Source: Rhizobium tumorigenes (lineage in GTDB: Bacteria; Pseudomonadota; Alphaproteobacteria; Rhizobiales; Rhizobiaceae). From it: 64,000 nt of DNA. Below the pieces are notes generated by a model, which searched no databases, was not told where the DNA came from, and was given only the letters and a program-made list of their open reading frames with translations. Location: assembly GCF_003240565.2 (NCBI RefSeq), contig NZ_CP117255.1:1612001-1676000 (forward strand), read 5' to 3'. The position numbers were made by a program, and so were the translations under genes. Below, in pieces: positions 6,088 to 50,852 of this stretch (within the stretch, counting starts at the first letter, position 1; every line of letters starts with the position of its first letter).

Positions 6088-6248
6088 GGGCGAGATGGGG
6101 CTCTTTGATTATTTTTGCGGCAACAGCCCGCTATATAACCTCGAACCGGAGTTTTGCCAGAGCGCCCCCGGCGAACAATCTATTCGGCAGCAGAGATGAC
6201 CCGTTACAGGGCTGAGTTGCCAGTCGCTGCCATTCGAGCCGCGTACCC

Positions 6249-7484
6249 TCAGTTGCAGTACCGCCGGCCGCCCTTCCTTTCGCGAAGGTCGAAGTGGAAA
6301 TGGTTCCAGTGCTCCGGATTGCTGCCCGGGCCCATGACGGTGTCGAAATAGTTGCAGCTGTCGGTGCGCACCGCCTTCAGCAGCGCGCCTTCACGGAAGG
6401 AGAACAGCCCTTTTTTCCGGATATCGATGGCGTGGCCGTTCTTCAGCACGAATTTGCCGACATCGATGGCGTTCCCGTGCGCATGCTCCGACATCGGGTT
6501 GTAGCGTTGCGCGCTGTTGTTCATCCGCCGGCAGGAATAACCGCCGAGCGGGATGATGGTGCCGATCCCCGAAAGATAGCGAAGCCGCGCCGAGGGAGCC
6601 AGTTCGTTCTTCACCCATTTGGCAAAGGCCAGCGTCACCTGGCAGTTCAACGTCACCGCAGGCCGGACGGCGATGTTGCCGGAGAGGCCGCGCAGCGACA
6701 CCGGATAGGGAACCTGGCAGGCCGGTCCTTGCGAGATAGCCGGCTTGTCCTGGAAGACGACGCCCATCTGGCGCAGCTGCTGACGGCACTGCAATTCGGA
6801 ATTGGGCATGCCGGCCGACATCGGCGGTGGCGCTTGCGGCGCCTCGTACTGCGGCTCCGTGGTGGTCATCGGATTTTCCACGCGCGGCAACATCGCCACC
6901 TGCTGCCCCTGCAGCCGCGGCGCGGTCGATTGCGAGATCTGGCCCTGGGCGCTGGTGCGCAGCACAGGCCGGTTCGCCTGGACGGGATTGTCCGTGCCGA
7001 TGCCGCTGACGACCGGCTCCTCGGACTGGCCCTCGGCGATGTTCTGCTCTTCCTCCTCGGCCAGCCCGACGACCCGTTGCGAGGTGCCACCGACACCGAG
7101 TTCGGCGTCCATGTTGATACCTTCCGCCGGGACCGGCGAGGAATTCTGGACGGAACGCTGCGATGCCAAGCCAGTGGATTGCGGCGCCACCATCGCATCC
7201 GGCGACTGGACCGCAGACTGCCTGCCGCTGACATGGCCGACATCGGCAAGGTTTGGCGTGTCGAGGTAATCGACGGAGGCCGAGCTAACCGGCGTCGTCG
7301 TGCTCTGGTAGGTGTATTGGCTCGGTGCATTCGTCGGCACGGAGCGGCGCGGCTGGATCGAACCGACACGTGTCTTGTTGTCGATGCCCGACGGCGGCAC
7401 GAGGCTGTCGGCAGAACAGGCAATCAGTGTCGACGACAGCAAAACGGGCAGCACTGCCCGCCGCAGAAAGGGAAAATACGCCAT
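6249..7484 (-). CDS. extensin-like C-terminal domain lipoprotein
   Basis: A 411-residue protein. An N-terminal lipoprotein signal (LLSSTLIAC, lipobox cysteine near residue 23) is followed by a long, disordered Ser/Gln/Pro-rich linker of roughly 200 residues and then a C-terminal domain of the extensin-like family. That domain has the pattern SEHAHGNAIDVG and later HWNHFHFDL, matching the zinc-binding HxxxxxxD and HxH layout of D,D-/L,D-peptidases of the LAS group, so a peptidoglycan hydrolase role is plausible. Conserved cysteines (CQVPYP, SCRR, SCNYF) suggest periplasmic disulfides. The start at 7484 was chosen because the signal peptide begins there. Confidence 0.86.
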   Translation of the reverse strand: MAYFPFLRRAVLPVLLSSTLIACSADSLVPPSGIDNKTRVGSIQPRRSVPTNAPSQYTYQSTTTPVSSASVDYLDTPNLADVGHVSGRQSAVQSPDAMVAPQSTGLASQRSVQNSSPVPAEGINMDAELGVGGTSQRVVGLAEEEEQNIAEGQSEEPVVSGIGTDNPVQANRPVLRTSAQGQISQSTAPRLQGQQVAMLPRVENPMTTTEPQYEAPQAPPPMSAGMPNSELQCRQQLRQMGVVFQDKPAISQGPACQVPYPVSLRGLSGNIAVRPAVTLNCQVTLAFAKWVKNELAPSARLRYLSGIGTIIPLGGYSCRRMNNSAQRYNPMSEHAHGNAIDVGKFVLKNGHAIDIRKKGLFSFREGALLKAVRTDSCNYFDTVMGPGSNPEHWNHFHFDLRERKGGRRYCN

Positions 7485-39844: not shown

Positions 39845-40107
39845 TACTGCCTCATGCTGCACCCGGCGCCATCCGCCTCGCCATTCTCTATAGCGACCAA
39901 ATGTGGCAGGTGGCAAATGCTGGCAAGCTTCGCCTTTTCGCTGCACGACATCAGGATGCGTCGAAATTTAACGCTCCGTTAGGATCGCTACATTATACTC
40001 GGCTAATGGAATGCAGGCTTGAGCAATCAGATATGCAACAGCAGCATGCCTGACAATCGATTGTAGAAGAGTAAACCCGGAGATCACGCCCGTGAAAGCG
40101 GGGCTCG

Positions 40108-40136
40108 TTGACAACTCCAAGCCACCGACCAATAGA
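40108..40136 (+). promoter_or_regulatory. sigma-70-like promoter of candidate sRNA
   Basis: TTGACA (40108-40113), 17-base spacer, AATAGA (40131-40136). Transcription would start near 40143, about 30 bases before the first hairpin of the candidate sRNA. The -35 box is perfect; the -10 box is weak. Confidence 0.6.
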
Positions 40137-40142
40137 ACGCAG

Positions 40143-40288
40143 ACTGACACGCAGACCGAGTTCGTGACGTTTCGGAGCCGCTCGTCCTCCCCGGCTGCTC
40201 CGATTGATCGGCAATCCTCCCCCATCCCTTGCTGATCCAAGCAAACAATGCCCACAGCTCCTCCCGCTGCGGGCATTGTTGTTTCCGT
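40143..40288 (+). ncRNA. trans-acting sRNA of the alpha-r14 (NfeR1-like) type
   Basis: Three consecutive stem-loops, each with an anti-Shine-Dalgarno (CTCC-rich) loop. Hairpin 1: CGG and AGCCG pairing with CGGCT and CCG (40173-40202), loop CTCGTCCTCCC. Hairpin 2: GATCGGCAA/TTGCTGATC (40206-40237), loop TCCTCCCCCATCCC. Hairpin 3: AACAATGCCC.CAGC with GCTG.GGGCATTGTT (40244-40280), loop TCCTCCC, followed by GTTTCC, serving as terminator. This matches what I recall of the alpha-r14 family, which has three hairpins with CCUCCUCCC-type loops, about 120-125 bases long, found across Rhizobiales and acting on ABC transporter mRNAs through Hfq. The remaining bases from 39845 to the next gene hold no other gene. 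Strand and boundaries are inferred, not measured. Confidence 0.78.
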
Positions 40289-40586
40289 CACAAGCCCGCC
40301 CTCCGGGCATCCCTGACAAGCTCAGGCGGCCGACGCTGAGCGAATCGCCAATGGCGACCCACGCCGGCCGCACCCACGCACCCTGCATTTCTGGCAATGC
40401 GACAATTGCGCACATTTTATAACCAATCATGGTGCAAATAGTGGCAAGCAATGCGTCTTACGCATGGGTGGCATGATGCATTGACGCTTTTGGTTTTCGC
40501 GGCATGCGGTATATTCAGCCTCAGTAGAAAGAAGCCAGCGCAAACGATTGCTGCTGGCGGATCAAACCCTCGGAAAGGGGCTTACC

Positions 40587-40733
40587 ATGAACATCACACG
40601 CTCTTACAACAACTGGCGCAAGTATCGTCAGACCGTTACCGAACTCGGCCGCATGAGCACACGCGAACTGCACGACCTCGGCATCGACCGTTCTGACATC
40701 CACCGCGTTGCCCGCGAAGCCACTGGTCGCTAA
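40587..40733 (+). CDS. DUF1127 micro-protein 1
   Basis: A 48-residue basic protein with the DUF1127 core RTELGRMSTRELHDLGIDRSDI in slightly different form (TELGRMSTRELHDLGIDRSD). AAAGGGG precedes the ATG. Members influence phosphate, RNA turnover or motility in other alphaproteobacteria; here function is unknown. The downstream terminator and the second DUF1127 gene follow. Confidence 0.9.
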   Translation: MNITRSYNNWRKYRQTVTELGRMSTRELHDLGIDRSDIHRVAREATGR

Positions 40734-40768
40734 GTAGACCCTGGCATCGCCACCTGCGATAGCCTTAC

Positions 40769-40807
40769 AACGCCCGTTGCGGATCCCGCGGCGGGCGTTC
40801 TTTTTTG
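40769..40807 (+). terminator. terminator after DUF1127 gene 1
   Basis: AACGCCCG and CGGGCGTT arms with an inner GCGG/CCGC extension, followed by CTTTTTT. Confidence 0.88.
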
Positions 40808-41021
40808 TCTTTTATCAACCGGCGCCGTGTCACTGAAACCTACGCTATTTTGTCGCCTAAATTTTAAGTCGCGACTGTTATTTATGCGGCGTAGTGCACA
40901 AACGCATGGCAGTAGCCTTTTAATTGCACTGCACATTTTTCGGTCTATCGCCTATATAGAGGTCAACCGATGACACGGCAATCAAGCCTGTCTCAAACCT
41001 GATAGAACCGAGGATACCACC

Positions 41022-41165
41022 ATGAACCCGATCCGTATTGCCAAGAGCTGGATTTCCTACCGCCGCACACTGAGCGAACTCGGCAGCCTGTCGAACCAGA
41101 CGCTCTCCGACATCGGCATCAGCCGCTACGAAATCCGCAACATTGCCAACCGCTCGTTCCGTTAA
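41022..41165 (+). CDS. DUF1127 micro-protein 2
   Basis: A 47-residue basic protein (RIAKSWISYRRTLSELGSLS, then a DIGISRYEIRNIA core), the second DUF1127 gene, 289 bp after the first. It is too short for many gene finders. A GAGGATACCACC stretch precedes the ATG and a TATATA element lies upstream near 40953. Ends in FR and is followed by a strong terminator. Sequence differs from copy 1 by more than half, so the pair is old. Confidence 0.88.
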   Translation: MNPIRIAKSWISYRRTLSELGSLSNQTLSDIGISRYEIRNIANRSFR

Positions 41166-41186
41166 TAGTCTACGGAACGTTCTTCT

Positions 41187-41215
41187 AAAAACGGCGCCCG
41201 GGTGGCGCCGTTTTT
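41187..41215 (+). terminator. terminator after DUF1127 gene 2 (works on both strands)
   Basis: AAAAACGGCGCC, a five-base loop and GGCGCCGTTTTT; near-perfect symmetry gives a run of T on either strand. Confidence 0.9.
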
Positions 41216-41254
41216 GATTCTGAAGTTTTTGATTCTGGCGTTTTTGATTCCGGG
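41210..41254 (+). repeat. 15-bp tandem repeat, three units
   Basis: GTTTTTGATTC occurs at 41210, 41225 and 41240 with variable 4-base tails; the first copy shares its T-run with the terminator. A slippage-type array just before trmFO. Confidence 0.8.
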
Positions 41255-41293
41255 TGATTGGAAGCGGCGAGCCATCGTGCTATTCAGCCGCCC

Positions 41294-42739
41294 ATGAAAA
41301 CAACCCTATCTCCCATCCACGTCATCGGCGGCGGCCTTGCAGGCTCGGAAGCCGCCTGGCAGATCGCAGCCTCCGGTATACCGGTAATCCTGCACGAAAT
41401 GCGCGGCGTTCGCGGCACCGATGCTCATAAGGGCGACGACCTCGCAGAACTCGTCTGCTCCAATTCCTTCCGCTCCGACGATGCCACCAGCAATGCCGTC
41501 GGCGTCATCCATGCGGAAATGCGGCTGGCCGGTTCGCTGATCATGGCCTGCGCCGATCGCAACCAGGTGCCGGCCGGCGGCGCACTCGCCGTCGACCGTG
41601 ACGGCTTTGCCGCCGATGTCACGCGGGAAGTCGAAAGCAACCCGCTGATTACCGTCGTTCGCGAGGAAATCACCGGACTGCCCCCGAAGGAATGGGATCA
41701 GGCGATCATCGCCACGGGACCATTGACCGCGCCGGGCCTTGCGGCCGCGATCCAGGCGGAAACCGGCGCCGATGCGCTGGCTTTCTTCGATGCGATTGCG
41801 CCGATCGTCTACCGCGACAGCATCGACATGGATATCTGCTGGTTCCAGTCTCGTTACGACAAGGTCGGCCCCGGCGGTGACGGCAAGGACTACATCAACT
41901 GTCCTATGGACGAAGCCCAGTACAATGCCTTCATAGATGCGCTGATCGGCGGCGACGCCGTCGGCTTCAAGGAATGGGAAGGCACCCCCTATTTCGACGG
42001 ATGCCTGCCGATCGAGGTCATGGCCGAGCGCGGTCGCGAGACGCTTCGCCACGGGCCGATGAAGCCGATGGGGCTGACGAACGCCCACAACCCGACTGTC
42101 AAGGCCTATGCAGTCGTCCAGTTGCGCCAGGACAATGCGCTGGGTTCGCTCTACAACATGGTCGGCTTCCAGACGAAACTGAAATATGGCGCGCAGGCGG
42201 ATATCTTCCGCATGATCCCCGGCCTGCAGAATGCCGAGTTTGCCCGCCTGGGCGGCCTTCACCGCAATACCTACATCCACTCGCCGGTGCTGCTCGATCA
42301 CTCGCTGGCGCTGAAGTCGCGGCCGGGCCTGCGTTTTGCCGGACAGATCACCGGCTGCGAGGGCTATGTCGAAAGTGCCAGCATCGGGCTTCTCGCCGGA
42401 CGGTTCGCAGCTGCTGAACGCCTCGGGAAAACGCCGAGCCTGCCGCCGGCCACCACTGCGCTCGGCGCACTTCTCAACCACATTACCGGTGGCCATATCG
42501 TCAGTGACGAGGAGCCCGGCAAGCGCTCGTTCCAGCCGATGAACATCAATTTCGGATTGTTCCCGGAGCTCGAACCCGGTTCGATCGTCAAGCCGGAAGG
42601 CATCAAGCGCTTTCGCGGCAAGGACAAGACGATCATGAAGCGGCAGCTGGTGGCAAAGAGAGCGCTGGCGAATTGCGCTCAATGGCTCGGTCTTGAGCCG
42701 GCTGCCGAACCAGTCGAGGCCATGGCCGCTCAGGGCTGA
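41294..42739 (+). CDS. trmFO: methylenetetrahydrofolate-tRNA-(uracil-5-)-methyltransferase TrmFO
   Basis: A 481-residue folate/FAD-dependent enzyme that makes m5U54 in tRNA. FAD fingerprint [19 protein letters not shown], then [35 protein letters not shown], and the C-terminal half [29 protein letters not shown] segment ([12 protein letters not shown]). The family uses two cysteines for catalysis; CSNSFRSD carries the first. ATG 41294 begins the FAD motif. Converges tail to tail with the next gene, overlapping by 10 bases. Confidence 0.96.
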
Positions 42740-43191
42740 TTGGCAGCTGTCTTTTCCGGCAGGACGAGATCATCGGTCGCGATATAGTTGCCGAGCAGCC
42801 ACAGCGACACCTCGGCAGCCTCCTTTGCCGAGGTGAATTCGTAAGTGCCGTTGTGATGCGGCACGTCGAGGAAATCGATGGTGATGCGGCGATGGTCGGC
42901 TGCATCCCGCACCCGCGCCCTGCCCGGCTCGATCACGTGGCAGGCGAAATGCTTGCCGAGATCCTTCATGAAGCCCGCCTTGTTGTCGTGCAGGCGGACG
43001 AACAGCGCCTTGCCGTCTCTCGTCTTCTGCAGCTGGCGGATCGCCTCGGTCGGGAAGGCCCGGCCGAATTCGAGGATGGCGAGACCGAGGTCGTTGAGGC
43101 TCTCTTCCTTGTCCTGCGCCACCATGCGGGTGGCGTAGAACCCGAAACCTACGACAGCAACAAAGATCGCCAACCAGATAAACATTGCCAT
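42730..43191 (-). CDS. membrane-anchored hypothetical protein
   Basis: A 153-residue protein with one N-terminal helix ([21 protein letters not shown]) and an alpha/beta remainder with [31 protein letters not shown] and [20 protein letters not shown]. No family is recognised. It overlaps trmFO by 10 bases at the 3' end. The phytoene-synthase-like gene lies 71 bp upstream in the same direction, so it may be the last gene of that group. Confidence 0.72.
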
Positions 43192-43262
43192 GGCGATTCT
43201 CCCTTAAGGACGAGTACGTTGAAGCCGCATAGCGCGCGAGACTTGCGCGAGTTTGACGGGCG

Positions 43263-44117
43263 TCAGAACTTTCCGCGCATCGCGGCGACGGCCATGACGA
43301 GCTGGCGACGCCATTGCGACGCTTGTATCGGCCGATCGAGAATGCCGGCGCCGAGTTTCTGCGCCTTGCGAAGGATAGGCCCTGCCAGCGCAACAGGCAA
43401 GAAGGCCGGCATGAGGCCGGGTGCGACGGGCGCTGAGGCGCGGGCTTTGGCCAGATGCTCCTGCCCGAGACCTGCAAATGCGTCGATGGCAGCGGTGATC
43501 CGGGAGATATCCTTGCCCGCGAGAAAGCTGTCACGGTCGAGCCCGACGGCGGAGAGGATTTCCAGCGGCAGGTAGAGCTGGCCACGATGGCGATGCAGCG
43601 GCATCAGCAGCAGACAGCCGGCGATCGCCTGGGCGACGCCCGCATGGCCGGCAGCATCGGTCGAGCGGACGGCATCGGACGGCGACAGCACCAGGCCGGC
43701 CAGCTGTATCAGCGCCGATGCGGTCTCGCCCGCATAGCCTTCGAGGGCATTCCGGTTTTCCATCGGGTCGTCATAGAGATCGAAGATCCGGGCGTCGATC
43801 ATGTTGACCAGCGTGGCGCGTGGCAGCCTGTGTGCCTCGATTGCCTGCAACAACTCCGACGCCAGAGGATTGGCCTCGGTCGACCCGTGCGACTGGCCTT
43901 CGAGCAGGTCGCGCCAGTATTGCAGTCGCACTTCGCCGGGCAGTGGCTCGTGGACCAGATCGCGAATGCGGGCAAGTTCGGCATGAAAACCATAAAGTGC
44001 GGCCAACGGCCGGCGCTTGTCCTCCGGCGACAGCAGGCACGCGAGATAACGGTCGCGATCGGTGTCGCGAAGGGTGGCGAGGCAGATCTCCTCGTTGCTG
44101 CGAAGCGCTGCCGCCAT
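43263..44117 (-). CDS. squalene/phytoene synthase-family protein, NDUFAF6-like
   Basis: A 284-residue member of the squalene/phytoene synthase fold. The first aspartate-rich motif DxxxD of the prenyl synthases is absent: the region reads GFHAELARIRDLVHEP and then VRLQYWRDLLEG, which matches human NDUFAF6 (AFNVELAQVKDSVSE, then MQFWKK) rather than crtB. It therefore probably acts in complex I assembly, not in carotenoid or hopanoid synthesis. It lies 9 bp after the NDUFAF3-like gene. The usual domain length is kept. Confidence 0.88.
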   Translation of the reverse strand: MAAALRSNEEICLATLRDTDRDRYLACLLSPEDKRRPLAALYGFHAELARIRDLVHEPLPGEVRLQYWRDLLEGQSHGSTEANPLASELLQAIEAHRLPRATLVNMIDARIFDLYDDPMENRNALEGYAGETASALIQLAGLVLSPSDAVRSTDAAGHAGVAQAIAGCLLLMPLHRHRGQLYLPLEILSAVGLDRDSFLAGKDISRITAAIDAFAGLGQEHLAKARASAPVAPGLMPAFLPVALAGPILRKAQKLGAGILDRPIQASQWRRQLVMAVAAMRGKF

Positions 44118-44126
44118 CTCGGGCCC

Positions 44127-44516
44127 CTAGTCGACGGCGATCAGGGCGCAGGCAACCGCCCGCGATTCGGACAGCATGATGTTGAAGGTCCGCACTGCTG
44201 CTCCCGTATTCATCGGATCCGACGACATGCCGGCATCGCGAAACGCCGTCTTCAGCGCCTGCGGCAAGGGTCGCATGTCGTCACCGGTGCCGACCAGCAG
44301 GAATTCGATCTCGGCAGCCTCATCGATGACCTTCTGGAAGCGATCCGGCGTCAGTGCATCGGCGGCCGTCATGTCCCAGCCGTAGATGCCAGACGGCAGG
44401 CAGAGGATCGAGCCGCGATGTGACATGTCGGCAAAACGAAAGCCGCCATTGCCATAGACGTCGATCGGCGCGCGGCCGGGAAAATGGGCGGAGCGGATCT
44501 CTATGCCACGGGCCAT
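44127..44516 (-). CDS. Mth938/DUF498-domain protein, NDUFAF3-like
   Basis: A 129-residue Mth938-like protein (FRFADMSHRGSILCLPSGI, WDMTAADALTPD, EFLLVGTGDDMRPLPQ and MNTGAAVRTFNIMLSE). Human NDUFAF3, a complex I assembly factor, is the same family. It overlaps secDF by one base (TGATG) and precedes the NDUFAF6-like gene by 9 bp. Conserved placement next to secDF and yajC in alphaproteobacteria was used in earlier work to connect NDUFAF3 with membrane insertion. Confidence 0.9.
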   Translation of the reverse strand: MARGIEIRSAHFPGRAPIDVYGNGGFRFADMSHRGSILCLPSGIYGWDMTAADALTPDRFQKVIDEAAEIEFLLVGTGDDMRPLPQALKTAFRDAGMSSDPMNTGAAVRTFNIMLSESRAVACALIAVD

Positions 44517-47065
44517 CAGGCCACCGCCTTGCCGGCTGGCGGCACATCAGGCTGCGGACCGGGCTGCACACCGCGCGGCCGAAGCTTGAAGGCGATCAGC
44601 ACCGGTGCGGCGATATAGATCGACGAGAAGGTGCCGACCGCAACGCCGAAGAACATCACGAAGGTGAACGAGCGGATGACCTCGCCGCCGAAGATCGACA
44701 GCGCCAGCAGCGCCAGCAATGTGGTTGCCGCCGTCAGCACGGTGCGCGACAGGGTCTGGTTGATCGACGCATCGATGAGGATCGGCAACGGCATCTGCTT
44801 GTAGTGCCTGAGGTTTTCACGCATCCGGTCGTAGACGACGACGGTATCGTTGAGCGAATAGCCGATGATCGTCAGCACCGCTGCGATGCTCGTTAGGTTG
44901 AATTCGATACCGGTGACAACGAACAGGCCGAAGGTCAGGATGATATCGTGCAGGGTGGCGATAATCGCGCCCAGCGCATACTGCCAGGCAAACCGCACCC
45001 AGATGTAGATGAAGATCGCCGCCAGGGAGGCCATCACGCCGAACGTACCCGCCCTCGTCAGTTGGCCCGAGATTGCCGGACCCACCACCTCGACACGGCG
45101 GAACTCGTACTTGTCCTGCAATTCGCCACGCACCAGCGTGACCGCCGACTGCTCGGCATTTTCGCCGCCATCCTGCGACTGCAGACGGATCAGCGCACCG
45201 GTCGCATTGCTGATCGGTTGCGCCTGCACATCGCCGATATTCAGCTGCCCGAGCCGCGTCTTGATATCCGGGATATCGACCTTGCCCTGCTTGGCACGAA
45301 CCTCGATCAGCGAGCCGCCGGTAAAATCGACACCGAGATGCATGCCGAACGAGAAGAAACCAATCATCGACAGCACCGAAAGCACGGCCGAGATCGTGAA
45401 AGTATAGCGGCGGATGCCCATGAAGCGGATATTGGCACCGTCGAAGACAGCAGTCCGCACACCCTTCGGCAAATGCTTGGGCCGGCGGCGCTTGATCCAG
45501 ATAGCAATCAGCCAGCGCGTCAGCGTGAAAGCCGTAAACAGCGACGCGATGATGCCGATCCCGAGCGTCACGGCAAAGCCGCGCACGGGACCGCTCCCCA
45601 TGGAGAACAGGATGGCAGCGGCAATCAGGGTCGTAACATTGGCATCGATGATGGTCGTGTAGGCGCGCGCAAATCCGCTTTCGCAAGCCTGCACGAACGG
45701 CGTCCCACCTTTCAGCTTTTCGCGTATACGCTCATAGATCAGCACGTTCGAATCGACCGCCAGGCCCATCGTGAAGATGATGCCGGCGATACCGGGCAAG
45801 GTCAGCGTCGCCTGGAAAAGGCTGAGGATCGCCATGATAAGAATGATGTTGAAGACCAGCGCCGCAGTCGCGAAACCACCAAGCGAACCATAGAAGAACA
45901 CCATGAAGGCAACCACGGCCAGCGCGCCGACGATGCCGGCGATGATGCTGGCCCGGGCGGAATCCGCGCCGAGCCCGGGCTCGACAGTGCGCTCCTCGAC
46001 GACGGTCAGCGTTGCCGGCAACGAGCCGGAGTGCAGGAGGATAACCAGATCGGCAGCCCCCTCGGGCGAAAAATTGCCTGCCAGCATGCCCTTGCCATCG
46101 GTCACGGGCTGCTTGATCAGCGGCGCCGAGATCACCTGGTCGTCAAGCACGGCGACATAGGATTTTCCGACGTTCTTCGCCGTCGCCTGTGCGAATGCCT
46201 GGGTGGCCTTCGCGTCAAGCTGGAAGGTCACGACATTCTGCTTGGTCTGGGTATCCAGCATCGGCTCGGCGGCGATGATGCTCTGGTCGTTGGCAACGGG
46301 CCGCTTGAAGGCAAGGTAGCTTTCCGGCGGATCGTCCTGTGAATACAGTACTTCGGAATTTGCCGGTGGCTGGGTGTCGATCGCCGTCTGCACCGGCATG
46401 CTGGTATCCAGCATGTTGAAAGTCAGCTTGGCCGGCTGGTTCAGCAGCGTCTTCAGCCGCTGGGGATCGGTCAGGCCGGGCACCTCGACGATGAGCCGGT
46501 CGTTGCCCTGCCGCTGGATCAGCGGCTCGCGGCGGCCGACCTGCTTGACGCGGCTGCGAACCACTTCGATCGACTGGTCTAGCGCCTCTGCAGTACGGAA
46601 GGCGATGCCTTCGTTTGTCAGTGCCACGGTAATCAGGCCGCCATCGCCGGGGACGACGGTCGCCTCGCGGATTGAACCGCCAGTGGCCGAACTGCCGACG
46701 CTGTCGGTCAAAGGCTTGAGTGCATCGGTTGCCGCCGCCATCTGGCCGACGTCGGTCAGGTGCATGGTGATGGTCTGGACGGTACCGGAAAGATCGACGG
46801 TGGGAATTTTCGCATCACGCAGCCGACGGGCGACATCGTTGATCGTCGATTGCAGCCGGGCGGCGACGATCTCGTCGCGCTCGATCTTCAGCGAGATCCG
46901 CGATCCGCCCTGGAGGTCGAGACCGAGGATTGCCTTGTGGTGCGGCAGCCAGCTCGGGAAACGCTCGAGCTGGCGGTCGCTGAACAGGTTGGGAAGTGCG
47001 ACGAGGACGCTGGCAACGACGGCAAGCCAAACGAGGATTGTCTTCCAGCGGGAGAATTGCAGCAT
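44516..47065 (-). CDS. secDF: protein translocase SecDF fusion
   Basis: An 849-residue fusion of SecD and SecF, helper subunits of the Sec translocon that use proton flow to pull preproteins. SecD half: first helix at about residues 10-26, large P1 domain, then helices with the motif GLAVDSNVLIYERIREKLK. SecF half begins about residue 540 with GVDFTGGSLIEV and ends with SLNDTVVVYDRMREN. Twelve helices in all. It follows yajC by 60 bp in the same direction. Confidence 0.97.
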   Translation of the reverse strand: MLQFSRWKTILVWLAVVASVLVALPNLFSDRQLERFPSWLPHHKAILGLDLQGGSRISLKIERDEIVAARLQSTINDVARRLRDAKIPTVDLSGTVQTITMHLTDVGQMAAATDALKPLTDSVGSSATGGSIREATVVPGDGGLITVALTNEGIAFRTAEALDQSIEVVRSRVKQVGRREPLIQRQGNDRLIVEVPGLTDPQRLKTLLNQPAKLTFNMLDTSMPVQTAIDTQPPANSEVLYSQDDPPESYLAFKRPVANDQSIIAAEPMLDTQTKQNVVTFQLDAKATQAFAQATAKNVGKSYVAVLDDQVISAPLIKQPVTDGKGMLAGNFSPEGAADLVILLHSGSLPATLTVVEERTVEPGLGADSARASIIAGIVGALAVVAFMVFFYGSLGGFATAALVFNIILIMAILSLFQATLTLPGIAGIIFTMGLAVDSNVLIYERIREKLKGGTPFVQACESGFARAYTTIIDANVTTLIAAAILFSMGSGPVRGFAVTLGIGIIASLFTAFTLTRWLIAIWIKRRRPKHLPKGVRTAVFDGANIRFMGIRRYTFTISAVLSVLSMIGFFSFGMHLGVDFTGGSLIEVRAKQGKVDIPDIKTRLGQLNIGDVQAQPISNATGALIRLQSQDGGENAEQSAVTLVRGELQDKYEFRRVEVVGPAISGQLTRAGTFGVMASLAAIFIYIWVRFAWQYALGAIIATLHDIILTFGLFVVTGIEFNLTSIAAVLTIIGYSLNDTVVVYDRMRENLRHYKQMPLPILIDASINQTLSRTVLTAATTLLALLALSIFGGEVIRSFTFVMFFGVAVGTFSSIYIAAPVLIAFKLRPRGVQPGPQPDVPPAGKAVA

Positions 47066-47127
47066 GGCGTTCTCGACTTTACTATTCGTCGCGACGCGGC
47101 CGGACGGCCGGCCGCCCGTTATCGATG

Positions 47128-47478
47128 CTAGGCTGCGTCCGCCTTGACCGGTTCACCCTTGACGCGGACTTCCGATATCGCCGTACGGACAACGCGGACC
47201 TTGACGCCTTCGGCAATCTCGACTTCGAGTTCCTTGTCGTCGACGACCTTGACGACCTTGCCGACAATGCCGCCGCCCGTGACGATCTGGTCGCCGCGAC
47301 GGATATTCTTCAGCACGTCGTCACGCTTGCGCGCCTGGGCGCGCTGTGGCCGGATAAGGAGAAAATACCAGACGACCATCAGCGGAACGAAGAGGAAAAC
47401 CATTTCCATGCCGGAACCGCCAAACACGCCCATGGCGGTGTCGGTGGCGCTCTGGGCGTATGCGTTGGTGACAAACAT
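47128..47478 (-). CDS. yajC: preprotein translocase subunit YajC
   Basis: A 116-residue single-span protein: helix FLFVPLMVVWYFLLI followed by RPQRAQARKRDDVLKNIRRG and the conserved GDQIVTGGGIVGKV. It partners SecDF and YidC at the translocon. First gene of the yajC-secDF-NDUFAF3-NDUFAF6 group. A 200-bp spacer separates it from the divergent DUF815 gene. Confidence 0.97.
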   Translation of the reverse strand: MFVTNAYAQSATDTAMGVFGGSGMEMVFLFVPLMVVWYFLLIRPQRAQARKRDDVLKNIRRGDQIVTGGGIVGKVVKVVDDKELEVEIAEGVKVRVVRTAISEVRVKGEPVKADAA

Positions 47479-47677
47479 CGGGAACTCCTCAAAATCCAGG
47501 CGGGAAACAACCCGTACACCGCGCGAGATATCATTGTGATCGTGGCAAATGCAACAAAAACAGCCGATAACCGTACCGTTTTCTCAGCCTCTTAACCTTT
47601 CGGCCGGGGAAAGGCCATGCTACCCGGCAGCGAAATAAACTTTTGCCGCTGCGTCCCATAACCCATCCGGAGTAAAC

Positions 47678-48553
47678 ATGGTGACCGAAGATCAAAACGC
47701 ACTGATCCTTGCCGAACTCCGCCGTCTGGCATCGGCGGTCGAAAGGCTGGCCGGCCCGCCACCGGCCGTCAATGACTGGGATGTTGCAGACTGCTTCGTC
47801 TGGAGCCCTGCCCGCGAGCACCTGCAGCCAGTGCCGCGTCCGAACCGCGTGGCAATCGGTCTCATCCGGGGTGTCGATCATGTTCGCGACATCCTGCAGG
47901 AAAACACGCTGCGTTTCGCCGAGGGCTTTGCTGCCAACAACGTGCTGCTCTGGGGCGCGCGCGGCATGGGCAAATCCTCGCTCGTAAAAGCCGTGCACGC
48001 CGACATTATCCGCTCGACCGGCGTCGCATTGAAACTGGTTGAGGTCCACCGGGAGGATATCTCGACGCTGCCCCTGCTGCTCGACATCGTCAAGGCCGCG
48101 CCTCTGCGTGTCATCGTCTACTGCGACGACCTCTCCTTCGATCACGACGACACCGCCTATAAATCGCTGAAAGCAGCGCTCGACGGCGGTGTCGAGGGCC
48201 GACCCGACAATGTCCTCTTCTACGCCACGTCCAACCGGCGCCACCTCTTGCCGCGCAGCATGATGGAAAACGAGCAGTCGACGGCGATCAATCCGTCAGA
48301 GGCCGTCGAGGAGAAAGTCTCGCTCTCCGATCGTTTCGGTCTTTGGCTCGGCTTCCACAAATGCAGCCAGGACGACTACCTGTTGATGATCGATGGTTAC
48401 GCCGAGCATTTCAACCTCGCGCTTGACCGAGAAGAAATGCACCGGGAGGCACTGGCTTGGTCCACGACCCGGGGAGCACGCTCTGGACGCGTTGCCTGGC
48501 AATACATCCAGGATCTCGCCGGCCGACAGCGGATCGACCTGCCGCGCGACTGA
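47678..48553 (+). CDS. DUF815 AAA-type ATPase
   Basis: A 291-residue P-loop ATPase of DUF815: LRFAEGFAANNVLLWGARGM holds the start of the Walker A (GARGMGKSS), VIVYCDDLSFDHDDTAYKSL the Walker B, and VLFYATSNRRHLLPR the sensor 1 region. The cellular role is unknown. Divergent from yajC; the same ATPase commonly lies between the dipM and yajC regions of rhizobia. Confidence 0.93.
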   Translation: MVTEDQNALILAELRRLASAVERLAGPPPAVNDWDVADCFVWSPAREHLQPVPRPNRVAIGLIRGVDHVRDILQENTLRFAEGFAANNVLLWGARGMGKSSLVKAVHADIIRSTGVALKLVEVHREDISTLPLLLDIVKAAPLRVIVYCDDLSFDHDDTAYKSLKAALDGGVEGRPDNVLFYATSNRRHLLPRSMMENEQSTAINPSEAVEEKVSLSDRFGLWLGFHKCSQDDYLLMIDGYAEHFNLALDREEMHREALAWSTTRGARSGRVAWQYIQDLAGRQRIDLPRD

Positions 48554-48765
48554 TATCGCCCGACCCGTTCAAGGACGCGCTGAGATGTGCGAGCGTTCAG
48601 CCTGAACGTTCCCACAATACTTTCCACGCAAAGTATAGGAATAAAACATCATTTCCAATTGGAACTTGCTAATTAAGATTTACTTTATGATGCCGCGATA
48701 TGTTCGGGCCGAGGAAAATGAGTGACCTCTGAGAAGGCTATGACAGCCACCGCCTGGGAGATGTC

Positions 48766-50313
48766 ATGCCTTTTTTTCGAAGCAAAGCTGGCCACGAAGC
48801 GATATTCCTCGGTGTCTTCGGCACCCTCATCTGGGCGTTGGGCACCGAATTCCAGGCATTCGAGGCGGTTTCCGACTTTGTCATCCGCAATGACCAATAC
48901 CAGCTCGACGACCTGGCGCTGGCGGTCACCGTCACCGGGTTCGTCAGCCTGATCTATTCCATCCGCCGCATCCGCGATCTCAGCCGTGAAGTTGGGCGCC
49001 GCGAGATTGCCGAGCGGGGAGTAAAGTGGATGTCCGGTCACGACGAGACGACAGCGCTCCCCAATCGCCGGTCTCTCGAAGAACGCATTAGCTGCCCTCC
49101 CCATAGCGGGGAGGAGAAGCTTGGCGTCTTCGCCGTCCAGCTCGACGGCTTTAAAAAGATCAAGGACCTGTTCGACCACAAGACGGCAGACGACGTTCTG
49201 CGGGTGATGGCGGAGCGCCTGAAGGCAATCTTCCCGCCTGACGATATCTTCAGGACCGGTGGACGGGACTTCGTTGCATTCATCGCCGGAGAAGACCACG
49301 CCGAGATCGCCGAGCGGGTAGCGGCTGTGATGACGAGACCGTTAGCCGTCAAGGGACAGGCAGTCGAAATCGGTGTGGCAATCGGCCACGCGCTCCTTCC
49401 CGACGATGGAACTGACGTGGCAAGCGTCGTGCGCTGCGCCGAAGTGGCCATGGAAGCCGCAAAGAACGACCCGGCACGAAAAATCCGGGCTTTCGAACCG
49501 ACGATGCGCGAGCGGTGGCAGGAAAGCTCCGAGCTCGAGAAGCAGCTTCGTCAAGCGGTGAGAAAAAATACGATAAAGCCCTATTACCAGCCGATCGTCG
49601 ACCTCCATACGGGCAGGATCAACGGCTTCGAAGCGCTCGCCCGCTGGGAACAGGAACCGGGCAAGTTCGTGCCGCCCACCGTGTTCATCGACCTTGCCGA
49701 ACGCACCGGGCTGATCGGCGAGCTGACGGTCAAGCTCTTCAGGGTTGCCTGCGCCGATGCAGCCACCTGGCCGAACGGCGTCATCCTCTCTTTCAACCTG
49801 TCGCCGACCCAGCTGCACGACGGGCTGCTGGCGATCCGCATCCTGACGATACTTTCCGAAGCCGGACTCCCTCCCTCGCGCCTCGAGATCGAGATTACCG
49901 AATCGGCGCTCATCCAGGATCTGGTCGCCGCCGAGCGCATCATCGCGGATCTCAAGAATGCCGGCATACGAATTGCGCTCGACGACTTCGGTACGGGCTA
50001 TTCGAGCCTTGGCCAGCTGTCGCGATTTAGCTTCGATAAGATCAAGATAGATCGCATGTTCGTCTCGGAAGCCGCCGACGGCAAGAAGAACGAGAAGATC
50101 CTGAGAACGATCATCGGCCTCGGCAAGGGGCTGGATATCCTGACGACGGCGGAAGGCATCGAGACCGAAGAGCAACTTCAGGCACTGACCCGGATGGGAT
50201 GCAATCTCGGCCAGGGCTACCTGTTTGGCAAAGCCGTCCCCGCCGCCGAAGCATCCCGCCTCCTCGAACTCGATTGCAAACTGGTGGAAACCTCGGAGAT
50301 GATGGTCGCCTGA
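48766..50313 (+). CDS. EAL phosphodiesterase with degenerate GGDEF domain
   Basis: A 515-residue membrane protein: two N-terminal helices (about 10-30 and 45-65), a GGDEF domain whose signature is GGRDF (R167 in place of the catalytic acid), and an intact EAL domain: FEALARWE with E289, NLSPTQLHD, EIEITESAL, ALDDFGTGYSSLG, and AEGIETEEQL. Expected to degrade cyclic di-GMP and to be unable to make it. The degenerate domain may bind GTP as a regulator. Single gene with a palindromic upstream region. Confidence 0.93.
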   Translation: MPFFRSKAGHEAIFLGVFGTLIWALGTEFQAFEAVSDFVIRNDQYQLDDLALAVTVTGFVSLIYSIRRIRDLSREVGRREIAERGVKWMSGHDETTALPNRRSLEERISCPPHSGEEKLGVFAVQLDGFKKIKDLFDHKTADDVLRVMAERLKAIFPPDDIFRTGGRDFVAFIAGEDHAEIAERVAAVMTRPLAVKGQAVEIGVAIGHALLPDDGTDVASVVRCAEVAMEAAKNDPARKIRAFEPTMRERWQESSELEKQLRQAVRKNTIKPYYQPIVDLHTGRINGFEALARWEQEPGKFVPPTVFIDLAERTGLIGELTVKLFRVACADAATWPNGVILSFNLSPTQLHDGLLAIRILTILSEAGLPPSRLEIEITESALIQDLVAAERIIADLKNAGIRIALDDFGTGYSSLGQLSRFSFDKIKIDRMFVSEAADGKKNEKILRTIIGLGKGLDILTTAEGIETEEQLQALTRMGCNLGQGYLFGKAVPAAEASRLLELDCKLVETSEMMVA

Positions 50314-50412
50314 GGCGGGCCTGTCGGCCCAACGCGGTCATGCCGCTGATCTGTCGCAATGGCACGGGGTGTGGCATATTGGATGGATCATCTGCATAAC
50401 CAAGGAAGAGCC

Positions 50413-50852
50413 GTGCCAGTAGACATTAGACTTGCCGAACCCGCTGATGTTCCGGCGCTGTTTTATGTTCGGACTTCCGTGCGGGAAAACCACATATCCC
50501 GAGAGCGTCTTACAGAAATGGGTATTACGGACGCTTCGATCTCTGCAATGATTTCCGCCTCGCCGTGCGCTTGGGTCGCCGTCCTCGACGGTGAAATGTT
50601 GGCTTCTCAATGATCGCTATCACTGACGCCTCACTTTTTGCAGCATTCGTTCTTCCTTCGCATCAGGGAAAGGGGTTGGGCACCAGGCTCGTGCTTGAGG
50701 CGGAAAGCGAGCTGTTCCGACATCATTCCGAGATCTGGCTTGAAACTGACAAAGACAGCCGCGCTGCGGATTTCTACAAACGTCTCGGCTGGAGCAACGA
50801 GCGGCAGGCAAAAGGTAGCGAAATCCGACTTACAAAAACACGCCCTGGATAA
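50413..50852 (+). pseudogene. GNAT acetyltransferase, split by a frameshift
   Basis: The first part (GTG 50413 with AAGGAAG upstream; VDIRLAEPADVPALFYVRTS) ends at a TGA at 50611-50613 after VAVLDGEMLASQ. The second part starts at an ATG overlapping that TGA (50610) and reads MIAITDASLFAAFVLPSHQG, holding the acetyl-CoA loop HQGKGLG and ending at 50852. A one-base loss near 50600 (GCTTCTCAATG where GCTTTCTCAATG would keep the frame) explains both halves. The lower GC of the surrounding bases suggests transfer. The TGA/ATG overlap could allow re-initiation, so residual activity cannot be excluded. Confidence 0.8.

Follow-up and report, generated by a model that had tools for sequence, protein, structure and literature searches.

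A widespread alphaproteobacterial yajC-secDF cluster encoding NDUFAF3- and NDUFAF6-type proteins with a probable part in complex I assembly

The window, the whole 64,000-nucleotide stretch of Rhizobium tumorigenes DNA analyzed here, contains a run of five genes on its minus strand, in the following order:

47128..47478, minus strand: yajC, Sec translocon accessory (PF02699, 86.3 bits; TIGR00739, 76.4 bits against a cut-off of 44.2)
44516..47065, minus strand: fused secDF (NF011315, 1282.4 bits against a cut-off of 1249; PF02355, PF22599, PF21760, and PF07549)
44127..44516, minus strand: Mth938-domain (DUF498) gene of the NDUFAF3 type (PF04430, 101.9 bits; nearest solved structures 2fi9 and 2fvt)
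43263..44117, minus strand: SQS/PSY-fold gene without the catalytic aspartates, of the NDUFAF6 type (PF00494, 174.2 bits; empty Asp columns; JGI names)
42730..43191, minus strand: unnamed fifth gene, 153 amino acids, with a predicted membrane helix at the N terminus and perhaps a PH-like domain (tentative model and fold match; unmatched in Pfam and NCBIfam)

The list of open reading frames and Pfam confirm the layout described in the initial annotation, namely the five genes at these coordinates and in this order, a one-base overlap, and gaps of 9 and 71 bases. The stop codon of secDF and the start codon of the Mth938 gene share one base in the sequence TGATG, 62 bases separate yajC from secDF, and the gaps of 9 and 71 bases lie on either side of the SQS/PSY-like gene, before it and ahead of the fifth gene, respectively. 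YajC, SecDF, and the SQS/PSY-domain protein are named by both Pfam and NCBIfam, and the Mth938/DUF498 protein by Pfam alone. YajC scores above the curated cut-off of TIGR00739, and SecDF matches NF011315 above its curated cut-off as a full-length fused SecD-SecF protein, with a SecD_SecF_C match of 273.2 bits in Pfam. The Mth938 product passes the PF04430 cut-off of 33 and covers the profile completely (positions 1–109 of 109), while the SQS/PSY-like product passes the PF00494 cut-off of 26 with a full-length domain. PF04430 and PF00494 have one match each in the whole genome (5.98 Mb, 6 contigs), so that no second SQS_PSY copy is available for a hopanoid or carotenoid pathway.

No Rfam match was found in 40000–50500, and pattern searches of 42500–47900 returned one promoter-like site against 1.4 expected by chance and two terminator-like sites against 4.3 expected. 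Following an idea from the accessible part of PMC10987492, the open reading frame list was inspected by eye 5′ of yajC, where no arrest-peptide frame stood out. A DUF815 ATPase gene (47678–48553, 346.4 bits) lies divergent from yajC.

The catalytic motifs of the SQS/PSY-like protein were compared in an alignment of the window copy with 38 of 51 other same-strand copies, 13 of lower score or length being left out. In motif one, the first Asp column is occupied by Ala, Ser, or Val (35, 3, and 1 of the 39 aligned copies) and the second by Arg, Lys, or Gly (23, 15, and 1). In the second motif, the first Asp is missing from all 39 copies and the second from 37. In the 13 left-out copies, too, Asp is missing from the first pair; several of them do not cover the second motif, and any letter present at its first Asp is another residue. 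With the first Asp pair lost in 52 of 52 copies examined, the earlier statement that the protein lacks the DxxxD motifs is upheld. Eight enzyme-like controls from the same loci, hand-picked from 14 profile matches with a DDxxD string, all carry Asp at both columns of the second motif, which alone gives a clean contrast since motif one is gap-shifted in six of the eight.

The product scores 82.8 bits with the HpnD model and 34.3 bits with the HpnC model, against NCBIfam cut-offs of 278.6 and 250.45, and further synthase models give 26.4 against 500 and 25.2 against 550 bits. Below these cut-offs and without the catalytic aspartates, it does not belong with HpnC, HpnD, or phytoene synthase, whereas it has the features of the NDUFAF6 type, an SQS/PSY domain devoid of DxxxD motifs. 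HpnC (4hd1) and CrtM (8is6) possess the same domain but, unlike the window protein, not the loss of the catalytic aspartates. Eukaryotic NDUFAF6/NDU1 and its orthologues likewise combine the domain with absent DxxxD motifs, according to the accessible part of PMC8007014; the window protein differs in being bacterial, and the likeness is drawn from the domain, the motif loss, and the names of relatives.

The neighborhood was examined in a class sample of 290 genomes, 174 of which contain PF04430. Using profiles built on the window proteins, we scanned 64 class loci: the window and 63 loci, from 60 families, picked from the listed places in the other 173 Mth938-positive genomes. The added loci extend about 7 kb to either side where the contig permits, and one family gave three loci and another two. 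All 64 were picked for having the Mth938 gene, and the neighbor counts are conditional on it. SecDF is found near Mth938 in 63 of the 64 loci (missing in L020) and YajC also in 63 (missing in L030). An SQS/PSY-like gene lies on the same strand in 52, its profile also catching true synthases, some of them on the opposite strand, and its spacing from the Mth938 gene is in many loci larger than in the window. The conservation of the neighborhood proposed in the initial annotation is thereby borne out within the class, where yajC-secDF-Mth938-(SQS/PSY-like) is a usual, widespread gene cluster. The exact order yajC-secDF-Mth938-SQS/PSY-fifth gene, with trmFO convergent, recurs in 78 of the 80 titled loci that ranked best among 335 carrying a relative of the fifth gene; of the other two, one has no yajC and one has two open reading frame midpoints swapped. 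Outside the class, SecDF and YajC adjoin Mth938 in three of 19 usable loci (17 families), and no SQS/PSY-like gene was found near Mth938 in any of the 19.

At one class locus, L008, a gene for a Urate_ox_N membrane protein (6237–6866; PF06181, 63.8 bits) sits between the Mth938 and SQS/PSY-like genes. Eight loci were grouped by such an open reading frame, of which the L008 copy alone was checked with Pfam, and in seven of the eight it lies on the strand opposite Mth938; this clustering of the longest downstream frames is noisy, being spoiled by shadow frames in high-GC DNA, and was used for this observation alone.

We then compared the distribution of the Mth938 gene with that of complex I, marked by NuoA (PF00507). 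NuoA is present in 255 of the 290 class genomes: Mth938 and NuoA occur together in 173, Mth938 alone in one, NuoA alone in 82, and neither in 34. The sole Mth938-positive, NuoA-negative genome of the class, G289, has a strong NuoH match, so that a complex I marker (NuoA or NuoH) accompanies Mth938 in 174 of 174 genomes. NuoH is matched in nine of the 35 NuoA-negative class genomes, which shows that the absence of NuoA overcalls complex I loss, and not in the remaining 26, none of which has Mth938. As 25 of these 26 genomes are smaller than 2 Mb, genome reduction is a confounder. Complex I dependence was not drawn from the SQS_PSY family, present in 224 of the 290 genomes, because that count lumps true prenyl synthases together with the inactive type. 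Three other genomes of the window's genus (G309, G547, and G702) have two NuoA matches each, against one in the window's genome.

A phylum sample of 347 genomes, overlapping with the class sample, has Mth938 in 188 and NuoA in 297. Both are present in 187, Mth938 alone in one, NuoA alone in 110, and neither in 49 (Fisher p 6.9e-18, a value that overstates the evidence, given the relatedness of the genomes and the overlap between the samples). The confounder is eased here, as 13 of 20 listed genomes, out of the 50 that are NuoA-negative, measure 3.1 to 5.3 Mb. Outside the class, NuoA is found in 79 of 80 Mth938-positive genomes. With SecDF linked at three of 19 loci there, this indicates that linkage to SecDF is not needed for the association of Mth938 with complex I. 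Conversely, Mth938 is absent from 82 of 255 NuoA-positive class genomes and 110 of 297 in the phylum, and hence is not required for complex I generally.

The exception in the phylum sample is G571, given as 100% complete, which has a Mth938 gene and neither NuoA nor NuoH; NuoH was sought in five of the 50 NuoA-negative phylum genomes, G571 included, with no match. Its Mth938 copy is divergent, keeping two of eight residues that are invariant in a 20-sequence class alignment. It also differs from the class copies in gene context: it lies on a 4.1 kb contig (L198 156–3959) beside two radical-SAM-like frames, read as such from their cysteine motifs, and the contig has a GC content of 36.7% compared with 42.9% in one other contig. 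This context hints that the Mth938 fold is also put to a different use; several functions may share it, and the family (PF04430) includes 2fi9, 2fvt, and C11orf67 (2ab1), and the window product has the domain over its whole length. The initial annotation had named the presence of the gene in genomes without complex I as evidence against its own proposal. A marker accompanies the gene in 187 of 188 phylum genomes and 174 of 174 class genomes, counts that are not corrected for relatedness, and the one exception is the divergent copy of G571.

Taken together, these data favor, with a probability of roughly 0.7, a usual alphaproteobacterial cluster whose Mth938 and inactive SQS/PSY-like proteins would aid the building of complex I and would be made together with SecDF-YajC. 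The two proteins, of NDUFAF3 and NDUFAF6 type, could act where the quinone module meets freshly inserted NuoH (ND1). The operon would co-produce both factors with the SecDF-YajC part of the translocon, which may aid the insertion of such subunits, so that insertion capacity and assembly factors would be supplied together; the overlapping secDF/Mth938 junction fits such co-production. According to the accessible part of PMC6056720, human NDUFAF3 stays bound to the Q module up to a late stage, and normal ND1 synthesis in mitochondria depends on NDUFAF3, 4, and 6. By analogy, the bacterial genes most likely carry out the equivalent of the NDUFAF3/NDUFAF6 step at NuoH.

The connection itself has a precedent. 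From gene conservation, Saada et al. in 2009 (Am J Hum Genet 84:718) reportedly linked NDUFAF3 to a bacterial membrane-insertion cluster, SecF/SecD/YajC, and to C8ORF38. The association is already known from that work, reportedly with the same genes, the same neighborhood, and the same membrane-insertion and complex I inference as in the window. Beyond it, the present analysis provides presence/absence counts (290 and 347 genomes, overlapping), the motif census, and a lineage-specific fifth gene. The accessible parts of PMC3436739, PMC8007014, PMC4992684, PMC7050145, PMC6056720, PMC4793296, and PMC10987492 contain no statement of the bacterial gene association; four of them cite Saada et al. 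The original proposal of a pathway common to the translocase and the two factors, in membrane insertion or complex I maturation, is partly supported, namely for the neighborhood, the motif loss, and the co-occurrence of Mth938 with complex I; it is not new, its fifth member is weakened, and linkage to SecDF is not needed for the tie to complex I. The genome counts strengthen the association of the Mth938 protein with complex I, and the neighborhood provides an experimentally accessible bacterial system for two human disease genes.

The fifth gene had been put forward as a candidate for the same pathway. Its product has no match in Pfam or NCBIfam and is 99% identical to a protein of Rhizobium sp. 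L51/94; the differences to the nearest relative are mostly synonymous, which marks the gene as real. It was found in two of 149 genomes of the order and in 40 of 121 genomes of the family, three of the 40 matches (L074 and L080 among them) having one in-frame stop, by gene decay or sequencing error. A role in the complex I pathway in Rhizobium draws support from this mostly synonymous change and from its position: it immediately follows the SQS/PSY-like gene in 29 of 30 family loci, window included, and in all 80 titled loci, the best-ranked among 335. Against this stand its patchy presence within the family, the 71-base gap that precedes it, its occurrence in L086 without the two upstream genes within 3.4 kb, and its absence from five family members (G346, G376, G399, G420, and G452) that keep Mth938 and NuoA. 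Given this absence, it is no core factor and cannot be a general part of the pathway; its candidacy is weakened, and we regard a role confined to Rhizobium as doubtful. A weak model suggests one membrane span followed by a PH-like domain, a tentative fold match, and a sequence search of solved structures with the fifth-gene profile gave a single match (E 0.91). The gene is best described as a predicted lineage-specific, membrane-anchored passenger or accessory, seen in part of the Rhizobium family so far. It seems quite unlikely that it founds a new set of Rhizobium-family PH-like membrane anchors, added to a complex I assembly module, that would hold the NDUFAF3- and NDUFAF6-type factors at the membrane beside the translocon. 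As a small lineage-specific family, it holds little general interest unless a connection with complex I emerges. The gene shares a 10-base 3′ overlap (42730–42739) with the convergent trmFO-like gene (41258–42739, plus strand, Pfam GIDA), and in 25 of 30 family loci, each about 3.4 kb long, a trmFO match likewise lies convergent.

Alternatively, the Mth938 and SQS/PSY-like proteins could serve the Sec/YidC holotranslocon generally, through chaperone activity or lipid binding in membrane-protein insertion, with complex I as one client. The tight, overlapping linkage to secDF in the window and the nearness of SecDF in 63 of 64 class loci agree with such a function. SecDF is, to our knowledge, near universal, yet Mth938 follows complex I and is missing from 49 of the 50 NuoA-negative phylum genomes; outside the class, moreover, the linkage is mostly gone (3/19 loci) while the tracking of NuoA stays (79/80). 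A general translocon role is for these reasons unlikely, and a role in complex I assembly is preferred.

It is highly improbable that the 43263–44117 product functions as a prenyl synthase by means of an atypical metal site: its domain is full-length (174.2 bits) and 38 of 39 relatives carry an acidic residue at position 53, but the first Asp pair is replaced in 39 of 39, the second-motif aspartates are lost in 39 and 37 of 39, and the HpnD and HpnC matches fall far under their cut-offs. Names are a poor guide here, as the named relatives mostly carry phytoene-synthase names despite the lost catalytic aspartates; among 120 listed relatives (of 3444), the names are phytoene, 15-cis-phytoene, or squalene/phytoene synthase, and three are NDUFAF6 (JGI). 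Position 170 of the window protein is Leu, against Arg in 37 of the 39 aligned copies.
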